From: Lysinibacillus xylanilyticus
Lineage (GTDB): Bacteria > Bacillota > Bacilli > Bacillales_A > Planococcaceae
Assembly: GCF_001708185.1 (NCBI RefSeq)
Contig: NZ_MDDN01000002.1
Coordinates: 186,001 to 250,000 of the forward strand
Direction of reading: 5' to 3'
Length of the DNA: 64,000 nucleotides
Part shown: positions 13,149-56,527 of the stretch, one piece after another
How the letters are laid out: the number at the start of each line of letters is the position of its first letter
Position numbering within the stretch: the first letter of the stretch is position 1
Translations under genes and position numbers: made by a program
Notes under the pieces: generated by a model
Seen by the model: only the letters and a program-made list of their open reading frames with translations
What the model was told of the DNA's origin: nothing
Databases searched by the model: none

Positions 13149-13531
13149 CAATTTCGCCTTGGCGTAATTGCGTCCGGATTTTGAATTGTGCCCAGGCCTG
13201 CATATGTTTTTTGTGCGAAAGCGTAGTGTTAACGTAGCGGCAGCAACAGATGTTTTTTGTGCGAAAGCGTAGTGTTAACGTAGCGGCAGCAACAGATGTT
13301 TTTTGCTCGAAAGCGTAGCGACAGCAGCACCGATGCAGGTCAGTTAGCCGTTTTCGCAGGATGCGAAGATTTTAGGCTAACATCCTAAATTCATTCCTTT
13401 GAAAATCCGTGACATCCGCCGGAGGCTTTATCTTCATTCAGTAGGGGGTATGGAACCTATTGACAGGGAACCACATCCGTATTTATCTCACTACCTTCAG
13501 AGGTGGGAGTCTTCTACTGAATGAAGATAAA
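13149..13531. repeat. Structured intergenic repeat (palindrome family), copy A
   Basis: It starts with the palindrome CAATTTCGCC/GGCGTAATTG (13149-13170) and GCGTCCGG. It contains a 46-bp tandem repeat, a nested-hairpin module (13343-13381) and the signature GTGACATCCGCCGGAGG (13409-13425), and ends TGAATGAAGATAAA. The same parts in the same order occur at 44497 and 47526. Confidence 0.75.
13204..13325. repeat. 46-bp tandem repeat, 2.6 units
   Basis: Units begin ATGTTTTTTGTGCGAAAGCG at 13204 and 13250 and are identical over 46 bp. A third, partial unit from 13296 has TGCTCGAAAGCG. Related units occur singly at 54764-54850 and, inverted, at 56290-56358. Confidence 0.8.
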
Positions 13532-18127: not shown

Positions 18128-20406
18128 CGATTTGCACTGACCATGTTTCCCCCCGAATTCGCACCTCAATCGTGCCGTCTATTCCAGTTGTTACTGTCGG
18201 TAAATTGCGACTTGCGAAACGCTCCACTACCTCATCATGCGGATGACGATAGCGATTATTGAGCCCCGCGCTAAAAATGGTTAATTCAGGCCGTAACAGC
18301 TCTACAAAAGGCTCAATACTTGATGTTTTACTGCCATGGTGTCCAGCCTTCAACAATGTCATCTCCGCTAATTGTTTGTTGTAAAGACGAATAATCTCCT
18401 GTTCACCATGCTCCTCTAAGTCACCCGTTAACAATGCTCGAAATGCCCCCTGTTGTAAATACAAAACAATTGAATCATTATTCCCCTCATAAACGGTCTC
18501 AAGGGGCCATAAATATTGAAAGCTTGTCTCTCCTATACGCCACGTTGTACCATGCATCTTTTCTTTCACTTGAACCATTTGCTTCTTCGCTTCCATCAGT
18601 AAATCTTGCATAATAGGTTTATCCATTGAGCCCGGAGTGAGATGAATTTCATGCATATTAATCTCCTGCAAAATCTCCTCAGCTCCCTCAACATGATCAG
18701 CGTCTGCATGGGTGACGATAAAAATATCAATGTCTCGAATCCCTTTTCCTTTTAAAAACGGTACAACAACCTGTCTTCCAACCTCATAGGGGCTTTCTGA
18801 AGTCTTCCATAGTTCCTGCTCAAAGCGCAGTAAGCCTCCTGAATCAATAACGTATACGGCCCTTCTAAACGGCAGTTCAATAACTGTACAATCACCTTGA
18901 CCAACGTTTAAAAACGTAAGCTTCGTTTCATTAAATAACATCGGCAATAAATGAATACAGATTGCAGGAATGAAAATCACAACTGCAAATTTACCATAAT
19001 GTTTGATTTCTATAAAATAGAAGCCCGCTAACACACTTATCAACGCCACGCAAATAAGCCAAATAGCAGGTTTTCCCGGCGACCACAGCTGAAAAGGCAA
19101 TTCCTGGACATATAAAATGAATGTCGTAAGCCAAATACGAAGCGGCTCGTATCCAGCAAATAAAACCTTTGCTACCGGCATCGATATAATCGTTATGACA
19201 AACATAGCAATATTTAAGGGCAAAATAACAAAGGAAAACAGTGGTACGAAAATAATATTTGCCAAAAATGATGAAATAGAAATTTCATAAAAATGATGGA
19301 GTAATAATGGATAAACAAGAAGCTGGCATACAAATGTAATGAGAAATGAACGGATTAACCAGTTCGTGGATAGTCTTAAAATGACGCCAGAATAGACAAG
19401 ACTAACCGTTGCTAAATATGACAATTGAAAACCAATCTGATAAATGACACCTGGTTCTAGTAAGACAAAGCAAAGAAAGCTAATTGCTAGGGCATCATCA
19501 ATCGATATTTGCCACCTAGCGTAACGCATCAGCATGATTAATTCTACGACAGATACCGCACGGAGCACCGCCAGCTAGCACTCCATAGATAGGTAAGATG
19601 ATGAGTAAAACTATAGTCGCCATTTCCTTCCGTACGCCTATACGTAGAAGACCTTCAAAAAACAACCATGAGACAAGTGCCACATGCAGACCAGAGATAG
19701 CAAATAGATGTGTGATGCCAAGCTTTTGATAGGCTCTTTGAAGCTCATGATCGACTTGATCCTGTGATCCTATTAGAAGTGCTTGTGCTTCTGCAACTAG
19801 TGACTCCGGGAATGTTGTTTCAATATGTTTTTTCATAGAGTGTCTCTGTTTAGCAAGAAACGAACGAATAGATTTTTTCTCTTCTATAAAGGTCCAGTTT
19901 GTAACTTCAAATATTCCTCTTGCACCTTTACTGATCAAATATTTTTCCATAGAAAATGCATACGCATGTGCAGATGGAAGAGGTGCTATAAGTTCTCCAT
20001 GCACTAGATAGGTCCTCCCAGTCAATGAAGTAGTTTCATAAAAGCTTTTCTCTTGTTCTGAGGAGAAAGTATATACGACATATAACTTCTCACCTGTTTC
20101 AGTTTTTACAAAGCCTCTGAGTTTTTGACCATTTATTTTATATTCACTCGACCAAGTTATTTGGAATGTTGACGGTAGAGGGGGAGATTCCGTCAATTGA
20201 AATGTAATGATGAAGAAATAGGAAAGAAATCCACTGACGATAACAAGCGCTGAAATTAAACGTGTTTCATCTTTCAATTTAAGCCATAATGCGACAAGCA
20301 GAAGAATAGCGAGTAGCCAAGCTGACTTGTGTGCCGCTATTGAAGCAACAAGTACAGCTAGTGCTACGTATATCCATTTATGCTTTAAAGCTTTTTGCCA
20401 AATAAT
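18108..20406 (-). pseudogene. comEC: ComEC DNA-uptake channel gene, frameshifted
   Basis: Two overlapping frames together make one ComEC. Upstream part (to about 19540): two N-terminal membrane helices, the OB-fold extracellular domain, and the start of the competence domain (TPQ-free ITHLFAISGLHVALVSW). Downstream part (from 19568): the remaining helices plus the metallo-beta-lactamase domain with THADADHVEG and LKAGHHGSKTS. The break is at about 19560-19575, after LAGGAP; family members continue PSVLRA there. No ATG, GTG or TTG exists in frame before residue 44. The natural start is probably ATT at 20406 or 20403 behind GAAGGTGAG, overlapping comEB by about 20 nt. Without repair of the frame, DNA transport would fail. 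Confidence 0.85.
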
Positions 20407-21691: not shown

Positions 21692-21897
21692 ACTTTTTTT
21701 TGTACTTTTGCCAAAAAGATTGGATCATTCATAACATCCTTTCTTTGCAAAAGGTAATCATATGGAGTCTCCTTCATCTTACAATATCATTCTTACATTG
21801 AAAAGATAATTTATCTATTAAAACAAAAAGACATCCCTGGCTTTGCTTTTATGACACTGACATAATGATGTAAAATTATGTTATGCTTTGAATAATA

Positions 21898-22011
21898 GCC
21901 CATCACCGTATCTTGTGGTTGATCCCCATGAGTCGCCCAGTCGGAACGAAGATCAACCTATATACATAGCATACGTTTTAACAATTGTCATCTACAACTA
22001 CTCATTATGCC
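21898..22011. mobile_element. MITE-like element, copy B (short form)
   Basis: About 114 bp with the same ends as copies A and C: CCCATCACCGTATCTTGTGG on the left, and GCATACGTTTTAACAATTGTC then CATTATGCC on the right. It has an internal hairpin GGTTGATC...GATCAACC and the shared CGCCCAGTCGGAACG. It ends only 13 bp before the hen1 ribosome binding site, so the hen1-pnkp transcript must start in or before it. Confidence 0.6.
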
Positions 22012-22036: not shown

Positions 22037-23331
22037 ATGCAGCTAACAATACAGGCAAAGGGAGAAAATGTGAAAGCTATCTCCTACTTACTATCAAAAA
22101 ATCCGAATAATTTATATGAACGGCGTGTAAAAGATCATTTAGTTCGACTTGTCTATCACGAGCTTTCTGAAACAAGTCTTGCTGTGACAATATTTGTTAC
22201 ACCAAATGCACTCGCACTTGTTCAAAATGACAACGCGCTTGATATTACACACTATATTAATGACCGTGAATTCGCCGCTAGTAGTATTTTTTTATCCCTA
22301 ATCCGTTCTGCTTTAGGTACAGCGTTAAATGGCAAACCAAAAGAGCAGTATTTAGAATGGGTAGCTCAGACATTTTCATTCTCATTTGAAGTCGGTCCTG
22401 TTGCTTCAGCTATGACAAATGATGAGATAAATGGATTGTTTGAGCCACTCGGTTACGCTGTTACCATCGAAGCTATGAATAACCATAATCGTGCCCGTTT
22501 TCTAACATTATCAGCGGACATTACGCTCCAACGAGCACTACAGCATCTTTTTGTACTCATCCCTGTTTTAGATGATTATAAGCATTACTTTATCGATGAG
22601 TTGGAAGTTGATAAACTCAAACGATACGGTGGAGGCTGGTTAGATACACATCCTATGAAGGAGTATATTTATAAAAAGCCCTTCGCTTTTCCCATTTATA
22701 TGATGGTACTACTACGATACAAAATACAACACGTTCACTCAATACATTACGCTACGAAAAAATTGTTGAAACGATTAAAGATCTACCTCGAAAATCAACT
22801 ATTGTTGATCTTGGTTCTGGTGAAGGAAAGCTTTCAAGTTTACTTGCCTACGTTAAAGGAATTGACGAGCTGCTTGCGGTTGAACCTAGTGAAGCTGCCA
22901 TGAAAAAGGCGATAAAACGTTTTGAAACATTAGAGAAAGCATATGTAATACCCAAACCTACATGGGGCTCCCTTTTCTATTATGATGCACGATTACAGCA
23001 TAAGGATGTCATCGTTTTATGTGAAGTCATTGAACATATTAATGAGGAACGACTTCCTAAAATAATGTCATTACTATTATCTCAATATAGTCCTCAAACA
23101 TTAATCGTGACAACACCTAATGCTGAATACAACGCCGTATACGAATTAGATGAAATGCGGCACGATGACCACCGCTTTGAATGGACACGGAGTCAATTTC
23201 AAAAATGGTGTCATGTAATGAATAGCCATGAACAATATGAGCTTTTATTTACAGGCATCGGTAATGAACATAATCTTTATGGACAACCTACCCAAATGTG
23301 CGTCTTTACAAAAAAGGAGGTAAGTGTATGA
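22037..23331 (+). pseudogene. hen1: Bacterial Hen1, RNA 3'-terminal ribose 2'-O-methyltransferase, frameshifted
   Basis: The first frame holds the Hen1 N-terminal domain (about 215 codons, e.g. YLLSKNPNNLYERRVKDHLV), which in known systems activates the Pnkp ligase. At the A5 run 22673-22677 the frame is lost. One extra A would give YKKALRF and then DGTTTIQNTTRSLNTLRYEK, the SAM-binding motif VDLGSGEGKLSSLL, and the metal motif CEVIEHI with a later HDDHRFEW. Corrected length is about 431 aa, near the family size. Start ATG 22037 has GGAGGAAG 4 nt upstream. The stop overlaps the pnkp start (ATGA). The enzyme methylates the repaired 3' end so that the same toxin cannot cut again. Confidence 0.88.
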
Positions 23332-25913
23332 ACATAACAGTTCCACACACAGGGATTGTTCTGCTAATTGGTCCATCCAATAGTGGGAAATCTACGCTTT
23401 TACAAAATTGGGTTAATGTAGGTATGCTTTCTCCTTCTGAAATCATTAGCTCTGATAGTTATCGCACACTTGTTGCTGATACGAATTATATTGATTTTCA
23501 AAACTATTCAAAGGAAGTAGCAGATTTATTGTATGATGAATATTTCGCTATCTCTGCACAAGCCTTCGCTGTTATGGAACGCGTCTTAGAGGCCAGATGT
23601 ACATTAAATAAGTGTACATTTGTCGACGCTACTCATTTACAATCCGAAGAACGTCAAAAATACATCTTGCTTGGGAAGAAACTACATGTTCCTGTAAGTG
23701 CGATCGTATTGGACGTTCCTCTTGAAGAATTGTTACGACGAGATACTTTACGCCAAGATCCAAGAGGAAGTAAACGTATCAAACAACAGGCACGCCTATT
23801 GAAAACAGAAAAACGATTGATTAAAAAAGAGGCATTTACTAAAACCTATATGGTGAAAGAAACAGAGGAGCTAACATTATCAAGACAGAAATCATCATTA
23901 CACTTAGATGTAGATGCTGGGCTTGATGTTATTGGAGATATCCACGCTTGCTTTGATGAATTTATCGAATTACTGGGTAAGCTAGGCTACGAAGAAAACA
24001 AGGAAGGTTACTATATTCATCCACAAGGTCGACGTTTTGTTTCAGTTGGTGATATTATGAGCCGAGGACCAAAATCTATTGAAACGATGGCCTTTTTTGA
24101 ACGTCATATAGAGCGCGGACTTGCCTATATGACCGATAGTAATCATGGTTGGAAAATCGCTCGTTGGCTAGATGGACGTAAAGTAACGCTACATCATGGA
24201 GATGAGCTAGTTGAAGCTGAATTTATCGATTATGAAAATGTTTATGGGGTGGAGCAAACAAAAGAATTTAAAGCTCGTCTCGCCAAATGTTTACTGGCCG
24301 CTCCATCTCACTATATTTTAATGAACAACGGCATTTCTTCCGCTGTTGTTACACATGCTGGTATCCGTGACCGTTATATAGGCAAACAATCGGCAAGAAT
24401 TTCTGATTTTTGTCGATATGGTGATGTACTGGGACAAGATCCATCCGGAAAACCTATTCGTAATGATTGGTTTACAGAGCATCAATCATCACAGCTTATT
24501 ATTTGGGGACATGATCCTAAATTATATCCCTTAAAGCAAAATAATACGCTGAATATTGACCAAGGGGTTGTTTTTGGTGGTCAGCTAACTGCCTTTCGTT
24601 ATCCTGAAAAGACCATTGAGTTTGTGAAAGCTTATAAAAACTATGCAGGTATTGAACGGAATCCTTTACTTGAAGCGAAAGCTCAACGTTTTGACCCGCC
24701 AAATATCGGTGCATTTTTAGAAGGTTTCACAGTGGAAACTGCTTACTTTGGCAATGTACAAATAGGTGGTGCTCATGCAAAGGCTGCCATAGACAGTGTT
24801 TCTCATTATGCATTGCCATTAGAGCAGCTCGTTTATATTCCACCAACGATGAGCCCAACTCCTAAAACATCTGCTTTAGAAAACACATTAGAGCACCCTA
24901 CAGAGGCATTTGCCTATTATAAAAAGAATGGTGTCCAAACAATGATTGCCGAAAAGAAACATATGGGCAGTCGTGCTGTACTGCTGCTGTTTAAAGATTC
25001 ACTCATTGCAAAAGAATATATCGATATAGAAACACTTGGCATTATGACATCTAGAACAGGAAGACGTTTTTTCGATCAAGAGACAGAGCAAAAAATTCTT
25101 CAACAACTTCATTGTGAATTAACGGAGAAAAACTATTTCGAACAGTTTAATACAAATTTCGTACTACTTGATGCCGAAATTTTACCTTGGAACTTAAAAG
25201 CGCAGCAGCTAATCGATCAGCAATATGCACATGTAGCTGAGCAAGCATTAATGGACCGTACAAAGCTTATGGAGAAACTATGTGACACAACACAAATCGA
25301 CGTTTCAGAATGGCTTCAGGAGTATAAGGGGTTACTTGAAAATGCACAACGATTTTCAACTGTTTTTCAAAACTATTGTTGGGATGTCCAGGATACTTCA
25401 GCTATTCAAATTGCCCCCTTCCATGTATTAGCACATAGTTCAGAAACTTTTTTCCATAAACCACATACATGGCATATGGAAATGAATCGACTGTTTGCAA
25501 AAAATTCAGCGCTATTCATTGAAACAGAATTTAAGGTAATTACAGATGAAGCTTCTGAACAGGAAGCCATTACATGGTGGGAGGAAATGACTGCAGCTGG
25601 TCATGAAGGAATTGTTATTAAACCTGAAACCTTTGTAACCAACTATCAGGGGAAACTACTTCAGCCTGCTATCAAAGTACGCGGACGCGAATATTTACGG
25701 ATCATCTATGGTATGGACTACTTACAGCCTTCAAATTTAACGAAGCTAAAAGAACGCAATCCAAATAAAAAAATGAAGCATGCATTGCGTGAATTCGCAC
25801 TCGGACTGGAAGGGATAGAACGTTTTGTAAAAGGTGAATCGACTGCTCGTATTCATGAATGTGTACTCGGCACACTAGCACTCGAAAGTGACCCTGTCGA
25901 TCCTAGACTTTAG
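23328..25913 (+). CDS. pnkp: Bacterial Pnkp: RNA 5' kinase, 2',3' phosphatase and ligase
   Basis: 861 aa, three domains. Kinase: P-loop GPSNSGKST at 15-23. Phosphatase of the metallophosphoesterase type: DVIGDIH (Asp204, His206), GDIMSRGP (Asp242, Arg246), NH at 272-273, THAG, WGHDP and DQGVVFGGQLTA. Ligase: EKKHMGSR with nucleophile Lys544, and EGIVIKPE plus IKVRGREYL further on. All metal and nucleotide ligands I could check are kept; the usual second Asp in the phosphatase DRGP box is Ser here. ATG 23328 follows AAAGGAGG. It is translationally coupled to hen1. Together they heal and seal tRNAs cut by anticodon nucleases. Confidence 0.95.
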   Translation: MNITVPHTGIVLLIGPSNSGKSTLLQNWVNVGMLSPSEIISSDSYRTLVADTNYIDFQNYSKEVADLLYDEYFAISAQAFAVMERVLEARCTLNKCTFVDATHLQSEERQKYILLGKKLHVPVSAIVLDVPLEELLRRDTLRQDPRGSKRIKQQARLLKTEKRLIKKEAFTKTYMVKETEELTLSRQKSSLHLDVDAGLDVIGDIHACFDEFIELLGKLGYEENKEGYYIHPQGRRFVSVGDIMSRGPKSIETMAFFERHIERGLAYMTDSNHGWKIARWLDGRKVTLHHGDELVEAEFIDYENVYGVEQTKEFKARLAKCLLAAPSHYILMNNGISSAVVTHAGIRDRYIGKQSARISDFCRYGDVLGQDPSGKPIRNDWFTEHQSSQLIIWGHDPKLYPLKQNNTLNIDQGVVFGGQLTAFRYPEKTIEFVKAYKNYAGIERNPLLEAKAQRFDPPNIGAFLEGFTVETAYFGNVQIGGAHAKAAIDSVSHYALPLEQLVYIPPTMSPTPKTSALENTLEHPTEAFAYYKKNGVQTMIAEKKHMGSRAVLLLFKDSLIAKEYIDIETLGIMTSRTGRRFFDQETEQKILQQLHCELTEKNYFEQFNTNFVLLDAEILPWNLKAQQLIDQQYAHVAEQALMDRTKLMEKLCDTTQIDVSEWLQEYKGLLENAQRFSTVFQNYCWDVQDTSAIQIAPFHVLAHSSETFFHKPHTWHMEMNRLFAKNSALFIETEFKVITDEASEQEAITWWEEMTAAGHEGIVIKPETFVTNYQGKLLQPAIKVRGREYLRIIYGMDYLQPSNLTKLKERNPNKKMKHALREFALGLEGIERFVKGESTARIHECVLGTLALESDPVDPRL

Positions 25914-26091: not shown

Positions 26092-26132
26092 AAAAACAGC
26101 TTGTTAGTTTTATTCTACTAACAAGCTGTTTT
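26092..26132. terminator. Bidirectional terminator between pnkp and yqeM
   Basis: AAAACAGCTTGTTAG...CTAACAAGCTGTTTTA, a near-perfect 15-bp stem with A and T runs on either side. Confidence 0.9.
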
Positions 26133-41610: not shown

Positions 41611-41931
41611 TTATAAATCATTTAAGATATCTTCAACAAATTCCCATTCTTCATCTGTTTCAATTGGTAATAATTCTTCAATCGTTCCGTCATTTCCAGC
41701 TACATATTGGGCAGCAAAAATATCTCGTTCCTCCATTGGCTCGTCCGTTGCCAAAACATATAGTACATAGGATTTACCAAATTGTTCTGATGAAAATGTA
41801 TGAATAACCTCGCATACCTGATCTGTTCCATCCTCATCTGTTACTGTAATTAACTGTGGCCCCTCTTCAAATTCATCTAGAAGTGTTAGGACTACCTCGT
41901 TAATCATTTCCGATACGAAAAACATATACAT
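41611..41931 (-). CDS. DUF1292 (YrzB-family) protein, paralogue 1
   Basis: Up to 106 aa. The DUF1292 core is ITVTDEDGTDQVCEVIHTF, then GKSYVLYVLA and the C-terminal ETDEEWEFVEDIL. It is highly acidic. No good ribosome binding site precedes the ATGs at 41931 or 41925; ATG 41907 (MINEVV) is another candidate start. The family occurs next to mltG and ruvX in Bacilli; the function is unknown. Confidence 0.82.
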   Translation of the reverse strand: MYMFFVSEMINEVVLTLLDEFEEGPQLITVTDEDGTDQVCEVIHTFSSEQFGKSYVLYVLATDEPMEERDIFAAQYVAGNDGTIEELLPIETDEEWEFVEDILNDL

Positions 41932-42095
41932 TCTAAAAAAATGTAGACACTCTACTATGACACAACTTTTGACTTTCGTTTTGTGTCTTCCTTATTCTCC
42001 GAGTCTGGTTTCGCCGAAGCTACTGCCATTTTGTATGACTCTCCAAAGGCTTAAATTCCACAGTATCGTTGCGTACACATCTAAGGCTTAGTTTT

Positions 42096-42222
42096 TTGAC
42101 ATCCGCCGGAGGATTTAGGCCAGCACGATGCTGGTCACTCAGGCGTTTTCACAGGATGTGAAGTTCTTAGCCTGAGTTCCTCTATTTCAGCGGATGTTTA
42201 GACACCTGCTGAAAGAAGTTAA
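42096..42222. repeat. Structured intergenic repeat (palindrome family), copy E (right half)
   Basis: It contains TTGACATCCGCCGGAGG, CCAGCACGATGCTGG, the nested hairpin at 42137-42177 and the terminal hairpin ending GCTGAAAGAAGTTAA. From 42097 on it is nearly identical to 44690-44815. It ends 5 bp from the tnpB remnant stop. Confidence 0.85.
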
Positions 42223-42227
42223 GCTCC

Positions 42228-42356
42228 TTAGATTGAATAATTTGCTAAGTTAATGCTTGTGTTCAAATCTCTATCCATCTTTAATCCGCAAGAGCAGATA
42301 AATAATCTGTCTTTCAGTCTCGAATCGGATTTGATTTGTCCACAACTAGAACAAGT
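42228..42356 (-). pseudogene. TnpB (IS200/IS605 family) C-terminal remnant
   Basis: About 42 codons in one frame read TCSSCGQIKSDSRLKDRLFI, then CSCGLKMDRDLNTSINLANY. This is the TnpB zinc finger (C-x2-C, C-x-C) and the third RuvC motif (DRDLNxSxN), followed by a stop. An in-frame stop precedes it at 42357 and no more of the nuclease is found upstream, so it is a relic. It lies immediately 3' of a group I intron core on the same strand. Confidence 0.88.
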
Positions 42357-42379
42357 TTAGCAAATTTCCCAATGGACAT

Positions 42380-42946
42380 TAATTCCATGCGTACCATCTC
42401 TCTTTCACTAAGATAAAATACTTTACCCTATTTAGAGAGGTTGTTAACATTTTTATAGTTGTATCTATTTTTCTTGTTCACACGAGGGCGCAACCCTTCA
42501 TGCAGTCTTTCTCTCACGAGTAGACCTCTTATGCTTTCACATAAGCGCAGACTATATCTTCATCTTATCTTTTAATAAGAGCCACATTTTTCTTCCGCCA
42601 TTCGCTTGCGGTTTTACTCTCCCTCAAGGAGATAGTCGTTGAACGTCTTCCTTGTCTCATAAGAGATTTAGGAGTTCGCTGCTAAACATCCATTGCCAAA
42701 GCACTTAGCGCTACCGTTTTCCGTTGTCACGATGATCCTTTACGGACACTGAGTAATTTTTTTCAGCCTATGCCATCCTTGTTGTTTTTTCTGCTTTCGC
42801 ACCGTTACGTCTGCCGTTTCCAGCTCCGCTTTGGTCACAAGGCTTTAGGAGTTAAAAGCAATTAACGTGGAGTTCGCACCAATCGCTTGATACGAAGGGT
42901 ATTCTGTTATAAATCTATACTTCTATACAGGTTTGTATAGTTTTAT
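42380..42946 (-). ncRNA. Group I intron core, probable IStron remnant
   Basis: The minus strand carries the group I core signatures in order: a P-like element GCTGGAAACGGCAG near 42810-42825, R element GTTCAACGACTATC at 42631-42644, and S element GAAGATATAGTC at 42550-42561. R and S supply the two sides of P7 (GACTA/TAGTC), the guanosine-binding helix. The 5' edge follows the stop of the DUF1292 gene and shows a hairpin CTATACA/TGTATAG at about 42923-42940. Group I core followed by tnpB is the plan of IStrons known in Clostridium and the B. cereus group. Extent of the intron is approximate. Confidence 0.75.
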
Positions 42947-43201
42947 CTAAAATTTCTGCAACAGTTTAGTTACCCATTCCGCCTCTGTTTCAACAGGCTG
43001 CAAATTTGTCATTTCCCCATTATTATCATCATAATCGAAAGTCATAGCAGAAATGTCTCCAGGAATTTCATTACCATCTTCGTCGATTAACGAAAACAAT
43101 ACATATGATTTTTCTTCTGCATCAAAGGTGAAGACAACACGGCATTTTTGCTCCTTGCCATTCTCTCCAATGATCAGAAATTCTTGCGTTTCTTCGTTCA
43201 T
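42947..43201 (-). CDS. DUF1292 (YrzB-family) protein, paralogue 2
   Basis: 84 aa, acidic: FLIIGENGKEQKCRVVFTF, SYVLFSLIDEDGNEI and ETEAEWVTKLLQKF. The start ATG 43201 has a strong AAGGAGGAG site. It shares the conserved Cys-x-V segment and the C-terminal E-x-EW motif with the copies at 41611 and 43397. The IStron remnant begins just after its stop codon. Confidence 0.88.
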   Translation of the reverse strand: MNEETQEFLIIGENGKEQKCRVVFTFDAEEKSYVLFSLIDEDGNEIPGDISAMTFDYDDNNGEMTNLQPVETEAEWVTKLLQKF

Positions 43202-44496: not shown

Positions 44497-44815
44497 CAAT
44501 TATGCCTCGGCATAATTGCGCCCGAAATCGGCTTTGTGTTTAGGCCTGCACGAGGGCCGACACGATGTCGGTCATTTCGGTAATGCCACAGGACGTGGCG
44601 TTTTTACCGATGCAGGTCAGTTAGCCGTTATCGCATGGATGCGATGATCTTAGGCTAACATCCCCTAAGAACTCCTTTTTCCGATACCGTGACATCCGCC
44701 GGAGGATTTAGGCCAGCACGATGCTGGTCACTCAGGCGTTTTCACAGGATGTGAAGTTCTTAGCCTGAGTTCCTCTATTTCAGCGGGTGTTTGGACACCC
44801 GCTGAAAGAAGTTAA
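44497..44815. repeat. Structured intergenic repeat (palindrome family), copy F (longest)
   Basis: 319 bp between yrzL and alaS. Palindrome CAATTATGCC/GGCATAATTG (44497-44518); three nested-hairpin modules (44577-44610, 44620-44659, 44730-44770); GTGACATCCGCCGGAGG (44689-44705); CCAGCA/TGCTGG; and a perfect 13-bp hairpin TTTCAGCGGGTGT (44778-44807), ending GCTGAAAGAAGTTAA. The last bases include the alaS stop codon. Confidence 0.85.
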
Positions 44816-47720: not shown

Positions 47721-47966
47721 CAAAAAAAGCCCTCATCCCATAAAAGGGACGAGGACTTGTAATTGATCTCGCGGTACCACCCTAGTTGTAAGTAATAGTA
47801 TACTTACCTCTTTAGCACTTGTAACGTCAGTGAACGGCAGTGATTAACTGCACTCTGGAGTAGCTTTCTGAATTTGCTATTGTGAGGATTTTTTCAGCCT
47901 AGAAATCCCTTTCTTTTACACGCACAAATACGTACTTGTTCCATCATCGTTTTTTACTATTTTCTA
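47721..47966 (-). promoter_or_regulatory. T-box riboswitch for alaS
   Basis: The minus strand has the T-box core AGGGTGGTACCGCG (47770-47783), followed by the terminator AAGTCCTCGTCCC...GGGATGAGGGCTTTTTTT (47721-47757). The upstream 180 nt hold stem I, and a GCT in AGAAAGCTACTCC is a plausible Ala specifier. Uncharged tRNA-Ala would stabilise the antiterminator and switch alaS on. Confidence 0.92.
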
Positions 47967-56115: not shown

Positions 56116-56527
56116 GCTCATCACCAAAAGTTGTGGATGACATTTGTTAAAACATATACTATGTAAATAAGTTGATTGGAGTGGAGGCTGGGTGACTCCT
56201 TGGGGATCAGCGGTAGAGGAACGAAAGCTAAGAGCATCACGTCCTGTGATAACGCCTTCGTAACCTACATCGGTGCTGTTGCTGTCGCTGCGCTTTCGCA
56301 CAAACAAAACCCTCTGCTGCCGCTTCGTTACACTACGCTTTCGCGCAAAAAACATCTGTAGGCCCGAGACCCTGGAGCGAGCAAACAGAGGAACGAAGGC
56401 TAAAAGCATCACGTCCTGTGATAACGCCTTCGTGACCAACATCGTGTTGCCCCAAGCGGCTCATCGGACGCCCTCAGGGAAGCGCCCAGTCGGAACGGAA
56501 ATCAACCACACGTTTTGGTGATGAACC
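56116..56527. mobile_element. MITE-like element, copy C, with perfect 9-bp target duplication
   Basis: 412 bp, no gene. Termini are inverted: GCTCATCACCAAAA on the left and TTTTGGTGATGAACC on the right. TGAAACAAG occurs on both sides (56107-56115 and 56528-56536). It contains two inverted copies of the nested-hairpin module (56221-56261 and 56393-56433) and GTGCGAAAGCG-type units. It is oriented opposite to copies A and B. Confidence 0.85.

Follow-up and report, generated by a model that had tools for sequence, protein, structure and literature searches.

Organization of the hen1-pnkp locus

The stretch analyzed here (the window) is a 64,000-nucleotide segment of Lysinibacillus xylanilyticus (assembly GCF_001708185.1, contig NZ_MDDN01000002.1, positions 186,001 to 250,000, forward strand), and its subject of interest is a plus-strand RNA-repair operon, hen1-pnkp, in which hen1 is split by a frameshift. 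An earlier sequence-only reading of the window had described a coupled gene pair between comEA and yqeM that specifies kinase, phosphatase, ligase and 2′-O-methyltransferase functions, with hen1 broken at a run of five adenines. This layout was recovered directly from the sequence. The hen1 gene starts at ATG 22037 on the plus strand, and its zero frame, which reads TAT AAA AAG at the broken A5 run (22673-22677), remains open until the TGA at 22901-22903, giving a product of 288 residues. The 3′ part of the gene continues in the −1 frame at 22678-23331, and an ATGA overlap at 23328-23331 couples it to pnkp, which is intact by sequence reading and family score (23328-25913, 861 residues). The flanking genes are indeed comEA and yqeM. 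The features of the locus, in window coordinates, are:

21920-22000, plus strand: dispersed intergenic repeat directly upstream of hen1, from a repeat search of the same genome
22037-22903, plus strand: hen1 5′ reading frame, 213 native residues (Hen1_L, predicted ligase-activating domain) followed by 75 out-of-frame residues
22658-22663, plus strand: Shine-Dalgarno (SD)-like AAGGAG, 9 nt upstream of the A run
22673-22677, plus strand: A5 run, site of the frame break, zero frame AAA_AAG; A6 in the five operon-bearing relatives in the genus
22678-23331, plus strand: hen1 3′ part with the methyltransferase domain, in the −1 frame; S-adenosylmethionine (SAM) motif from 22804, EVIEH at 23023, HDDH at 23161
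23313-23320, plus strand: strong SD-like AAAGGAGG of pnkp, read from the sequence, 7 nt before the pnkp ATG
23328-25913, plus strand: pnkp, intact, with kinase, phosphatase and ligase domains by family and structure matches
26093-26132, no strand assigned: perfect 16-bp palindrome between pnkp and yqeM, resembling a minus-strand terminator in a scan

The upstream repeat, about 80 bp long, has at least 41 matches in the genome under study (hereafter G000), with 40 of 182 candidates scored, and related copies also lie upstream of hen1 in the related genomes G018, G020, and G025. Within the operon, no RNA family came near its gathering score.

Domain assignment of Hen1 and Pnkp

Family and structure matches support the proposed identity of the Hen1-Pnkp repair pathway. 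The first piece of Hen1 matches the Pfam family Hen1_L (PF12623) over residues 1-214 with 150.6 bits against a cut-off of 23, and the second aligns to positions 259-462 of the NCBIfam model TIGR04074. Hen1 is not one continuous two-domain protein here, as the pieces matching TIGR04074, with 151.4 and 180.4 bits, occupy different frames; the 340-bit cut-off of this model is undiagnostic, being passed by none of the 32 genus genomes, with the intact Hen1 of G022 scoring 320.3. Pnkp matches TIGR04075 with 759.8 bits (cut-off 750) over residues 1-861, and solved structures align to its ligase, phosphatase, and kinase parts. It carries the motifs GPSNSGKST, GDIHACFDE, DSNHG, WGHDP, EKKHMGSR, EGIVIKP, and KVRGREYL, the individual roles of which in the kinase P-loop, phosphatase, and ligase are assumed, and shows zero deviations at columns of at least 97% identity in an alignment of 35 sequences. 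Near-invariant columns are likewise all unchanged in the Hen1 N-terminal domain (Hen1-N; 44 sequences), the Hen1 C-terminal domain (Hen1-C; 64 sequences), and Pnkp (35 sequences). One candidate for an altered conserved residue in Hen1-N, E199G, was dismissed, as its column also holds D, Q, A, and K.

The N-terminal half is kept in frame, as had been claimed: the 213 native residues coincide with the crystallized Hen1-N chain (4dqz/4drf/4e6n), and query residues 12-211 align to residues 12-222 of its 230, almost end to end. In an AlphaFold model built on a 44-row alignment, block means of the predicted local distance difference test (pLDDT) average approximately 82 for residues 1-210, dipping to about 50 in two blocks (residues 61-80), and confidence is low (37-50) from residue 221 onward, in the foreign tail. 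This 75-residue non-native tail is mildly hydrophobic (grand average of hydropathy, 0.41) and carries a charge of +9. Methyltransferase motifs occur solely in the second frame, where a 2′-O-methyltransferase activity is predicted; the SAM, EVIEH, and HDDH motifs presumably have their usual roles in this domain.

The locus shares with the bacterial Pnkp-Hen1 complex (TIGR04075/TIGR04074; structures 4dqz, 4drf, 4e6n, and 3ty5, which we take to be of the Clostridium thermocellum type) the two-gene operon, the three-domain Pnkp (kinase, phosphatase, and ligase), and the Hen1 plan of a ligase-activating N domain followed by a 2′-O-methyltransferase C domain, but differs in that hen1 is split by a frameshift. 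In both this locus and a known repair-with-methylation system the Hen1 N domain is thought to be a ligase activator, although the ligase is separate in the latter and lies within Pnkp here. Passages of one study of the two-protein complex describe an insertion domain that blocks the Pnkp ligase until the Hen1 N domain, as ligase activator, locks it open, whereupon Hen1 gets the chance to methylate (PMC4411300). Given its match to the crystallized domain, the Hen1-N encoded in the window may be able to switch on the ligase of its own Pnkp.

Distribution of the operon and the comER question

Pnkp was found in 6 of 32 Lysinibacillus genomes and Hen1 in the same six; the Hen1 profile alone matches something in 28 of the 32, the matches in non-carriers (at most 31.3 bits) being generic methyltransferase hits. 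All six carriers have the operon between comEA and yqeM, and comparison of hen1 among them revealed an A6 run in all five of the others (G014, G018, G020, G022, and G025). In a midpoint-rooted tree of yqeM and rsfS covering 30 of the 32 genomes (the two omitted genomes both lack the operon), in which some inner nodes are weakly supported, the carriers all fall inside one clade of ten and the 20 genomes outside it lack the operon; a four-gene tree of 14 genomes agrees on the carrier clade. The remaining four clade members (G001, G023, G024, and G031) have no operon; a minimum of two to three clean losses is thus implied, the number varying with the tree used. Outside the genus, comEA and yqeM neighbors are absent from the flanks (up to 6 kb), the only exceptions being two weak matches (22% and 28% identical). 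A protein search with one genome per species returned 31 loci with this Pnkp, and in 30 of them Hen1 lies beside it in a single uninterrupted frame (including L029, which is cut by a contig end); the remaining locus, L031, begins inside pnkp.

The sequence-only reading had also placed the operon where Bacillus subtilis, presumably, carries comER. Replacement of comER is not borne out within the genus: in all 24 operon-less genomes examined (of 26), comEA lies close to yqeM, at a distance of 0.23-2.65 kb. In 17 of these the spacer is shorter than 0.5 kb and is thus too short to hold comER, which we take to be approximately 270 codons long. No frame of this size was found in the seven longer spacers, which contain a gene of the DUF4085 kind (by family search on L002 and L186), acetyltransferase-like genes (read by eye), and small frames.

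Parallel damage to the operon

Of the ten clade members, four carry an operon that looks intact, two carry one with a broken hen1, and four have lost it. The second broken hen1, in G025, arose independently: a 136-nt dispersed repeat (net gain of 132 nt) after approximately codon 95 adds two in-frame stops in the N-terminal half of Hen1, with pnkp intact. This insert (L071, 9536-9671) holds two palindromes, differs from the repeat at 21920-22000, and matches no Rfam family at gathering score; pieces matching the element number 29 in 400 kb of G000 and 24 in 400 kb of G018, although several may be one copy. Downstream of pnkp in G025 lie a gene for a TumE-like toxin (33.6 bits; cut-off, 23.4) and a helix-turn-helix (HTH) neighbor (L071, 14746-15964). 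A frame resembling this HTH gene was noted by eye in L026 (10618-11190), and the toxin/HTH pair was not seen beside pnkp in the window.

Across the order, Hen1_L was found in 57 of 261 genomes, and the DNA of 38 of these operons was read, the stretch covering only the first ~280 pnkp codons in 30 of them. Thirty-three are undamaged in the part read and five are damaged: hen1 alone in two (G000 and G025), pnkp alone in one (G102, locus L128, frameshifted near codon 168 with hen1 intact), both genes in one (G246, L148), and a hen1 remnant with no pnkp match in 16 kb in one (G128). The other 19 are known by frame length alone (426-512 residues), a measure that missed the stops of G025, for which it gave 492. 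In a phylum sample, 11 of 398 genomes match, at table level only. As damage strikes either gene and either half of Hen1, the pattern favors ordinary recent loss of function in a dispensable module over a selected form.

Substitutions on the two sides of the break

Changes unique to the G000 branch (nonsynonymous/synonymous, N/S) number 4/10 in hen1-N, 4/13 in hen1-C, and 24/59 in pnkp, and the ratio does not differ between the parts (Fisher p 0.77 for hen1-C versus pnkp). A cruder three-point Nei-Gojobori (NG86) estimate gave an omega for hen1-C of 0.17-0.26 on this branch versus 0.07-0.15 on sister branches, alongside 0.08-0.10 for pnkp and 0.09-0.22 for hen1-N. The two methods disagree on hen1-C, where the numbers are small, and relaxed selection on the methyltransferase half, hinted at by NG86, is unsupported by the counts. 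Because the near-invariant residues are unchanged in Hen1-N, Hen1-C, and Pnkp, the break, if real, is young, and the lesion is taken as either young or no lesion at all.

Frame breaks in the surrounding genome

The reality of the break was examined by comparing 400 kb of its contig with 400 kb of G018 in both directions, and with a 99-kb contig of G020. Of the 237 G018 open reading frames (ORFs) with matches in G000, 214 were intact, 6 flagged as frameshifted, and 17 unclear; the reverse comparison (232 ORFs) gave 218 intact, 3 flagged, including hen1 itself, and 11 unclear. Flagged ORFs thus amount to 6 of 220 (intact plus flagged) in G000, versus two besides hen1 in the reverse direction. 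Against G020, 54 of 60 ORFs with matches were intact, 3 were unclear, and the 3 flagged were among the same six. Plain frame breaks account for four of the six (those in comEC, hen1, and two further ORFs); of the remaining two, one is an insertion with a group I intron and the other is doubtful, its break sitting upstream of the likely start. The pattern of a single-base change within a run of six or more does not apply to three of the four plain breaks: two affect single bases away from long runs, and comEC lost 11 bp. Since the lesions are few and mixed, ordinary mutation looks likelier than an assembly with noisy homopolymers, an explanation that was set aside for these 400 kb.

Interpretation of the broken hen1

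Taken together, these observations are probably best explained by a recent, ordinary loss of function in a standard Hen1-Pnkp operon that was inherited within the clade at this site and is now decaying. Several points weigh against this explanation: we infer from a single assembly that the hen1 lesion is a real mutation; the pnkp break of G102 is a one-genome frameshift that could itself be an error; an intact or still expressed hen1 would likewise show unchanged conserved residues and ordinary N/S ratios to either side of the break; and a raised omega in hen1-C would fit selection for losing only the methyltransferase half, although the counts disagree. The main rival, rated as unlikely, is that the true run is A6 and hen1 is intact. 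The difference is indeed a single base in a homopolymer, all five operon-bearing relatives in the genus have A6, the substitution counts show no relaxed constraint beyond the break, a one-base difference in a run is also seen in comEA at a distance of 1 kb, and the assembly is a 48-contig draft. However, the A run is short, and the scarcity and mixed nature of the frame breaks in the 400-kb survey argue against a general homopolymer problem. Two other routes around the break were considered and set aside. Reinitiation at ATG 22900, within an ATGA overlapping the zero-frame stop, would yield a product of just 143 residues that lacks the SAM motif at 22804, so that no active methyltransferase is expected, and transcriptional slippage was discounted on general knowledge, an A5 run being too short.

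It is also conceivable, although improbable, that the break is bridged by leaky recoding, in which a −1 slip at AAA_AAG, aided by the SD-like AAGGAG, would yield some full-length Hen1 beside the short form, as at dnaX in Escherichia coli. A −1 slip at A_AAG would enter the methyltransferase frame exactly; yet any loss of one A from AAA AAA G creates A_AAG automatically, and the five operon-bearing relatives, in frame with A6, have neither the slip site nor the SD element. At the position of AAGGAG, found in one of the six genomes compared, these relatives have AAAGAA, AAAGAG, or CAAGAA. Among 85 in-frame AAA_AAG pairs in ORFs of approximately 200 codons or more in the 400 kb, only that of hen1 is preceded by an SD-like hexamer 5-16 nt upstream; comparable pairs, however, number 1 of 96 in G018 and 1 of 21 in G020, and AAGGAG encodes Lys-Glu, for which this spelling is expected in ~7% of cases by codon use (AAG, 25.6%; GAG, 28.9%). 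The dnaX frameshift site has an upstream SD. As for structure, the 121 nt at 22640-22760, in which a small hairpin spans the slip site, fold somewhat better than shuffled sequences (z, −1.30; 21 of 200 as good), whereas a search that excluded pseudoknots detected no downstream structure (z, −0.30 for 62 nt and +0.50 for 102 nt). In parts of one survey, A_AA.G leads the ranking of tetramers in E. coli, six active members shifting at 0.26-5.6% with a pseudoknot, but motifs without a stimulator average 0.147% against a background of 0.112%, and stimulation of sites of this type by SD-like sequences is established (PMC4066793); passages of another source report slipping at A_AAG in the Bacillus cytidine deaminase gene (PMC5009743). 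The site thus shares with dnaX- and cdd-type frameshifting, as described in portions of these sources, an AAG in the A site after an A and a candidate SD-like element upstream (PMC5009743, PMC4066793), but it has no A at the first position of the heptamer and no detected downstream structure, is not conserved, and is known from sequence alone. A regulated form of recoding, in which one mRNA would set the ratio of sealing to sealing plus methylation by making a minority of full-length Hen1 and a majority of the ligase-activating domain alone, is very improbable, leaky rescue being rated the likelier of the two. The sequence-only reading had suggested a separation of function in which the truncated Hen1 could still support sealing without methylation; the pathway identity, the intact Pnkp, and the in-frame N domain of that interpretation stand, but a selected form, in which short Hen1 keeps the ligase active and methylation is dropped to some benefit, is not supported and is considered the least probable of the readings. 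The in-frame part does stop at the edge of the crystallized chain, its domain is predicted to fold with its near-invariant residues unchanged, pnkp carries its own strong SD-like site, and NG86 omega is up in the methyltransferase half on this branch. Nevertheless, the independent lesion in G025 weakens the idea by striking the very half supposedly kept, other genomes break pnkp or both genes, four close relatives have no operon, a 75-residue low-confidence tail is attached to the short product, and the counts do not differ between the halves. Moreover, none of the other order-level operons read combines a Hen1 cut after the N domain with an intact Pnkp.

Expected function and significance

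Under ordinary loss of function, a one-base contraction of the A run would have broken hen1 and left Pnkp intact. Healing of RNA ends by Pnkp would be expected to persist, since the component with a known dependence on Hen1 is the ligase, and methylation would be lost or very low. Sealing would require the 288-residue product to be sufficiently stable for ligase activation. Since pnkp has its own strong SD-like site, loss of its coupling to hen1 need not silence it. In G025, where the N domain is broken, the ligase should be off, so that the two lesions, in different halves of Hen1, lead to opposite predictions for their ligases. G000 additionally matches a further RNA ligase, RtcB, at two places that are reported to share a single 412-residue frame, and the Hen1-Pnkp module may thus be less needed.

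The locus is a known repair system with a broken gene and looks like a case of ordinary gene decay rather than a new repair system; taken alone the finding is mostly that. The literature search found nothing that combines Hen1, bacterial RNA repair, a methyltransferase, and a frameshift, nor Hen1 with Lysinibacillus. The wider value of the locus lies in the natural series that a single clade provides, in which intact (four), hen1-broken (two), and operon-less (four) genomes allow one to ask when cells can forgo Hen1 methylation or the whole module, a question that in vitro work cannot answer.

Other features of the window

Two further frame breaks near the operon had been missed in the sequence-only reading:

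19550-19562, minus strand: site of an 11-bp deletion (near 19556) that splits comEC into two frames, by comparison with G018 and G020
21694-21701, minus strand: run of eight T (A8 on the coding strand) that exceeds its counterpart in G018 and G020 by one base and disrupts the usual start frame of comEA

The comEA break, a shift at the start of the gene, escaped the ORF break filter. The breaks in comEC, comEA, and hen1 fall within ~3.2 kb. The strain may be competence-defective, although loss of competence would cover only the breaks in comEC and comEA and not that in hen1.

Elsewhere in the window, an insertion of ~1.06 kb (41911-42973, minus strand) splits a gene that G018 and G020 carry in one piece and that belongs, judging by the G018 copy, to the DUF1292 family. 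Within the insertion lie a RAGATH-18 RNA (41988-42049), a Bacillaceae-1 RNA (42120-42186), and the core of a group I intron (RF00028, 42528-42920). The case may represent a group I intron located in a protein-coding gene. More Bacillaceae-1 RNAs lie at 13324-13391, 44605-44669, 44713-44779, 56212-56282, and 56384-56450, and a T-box leader is located at 47742-47956.

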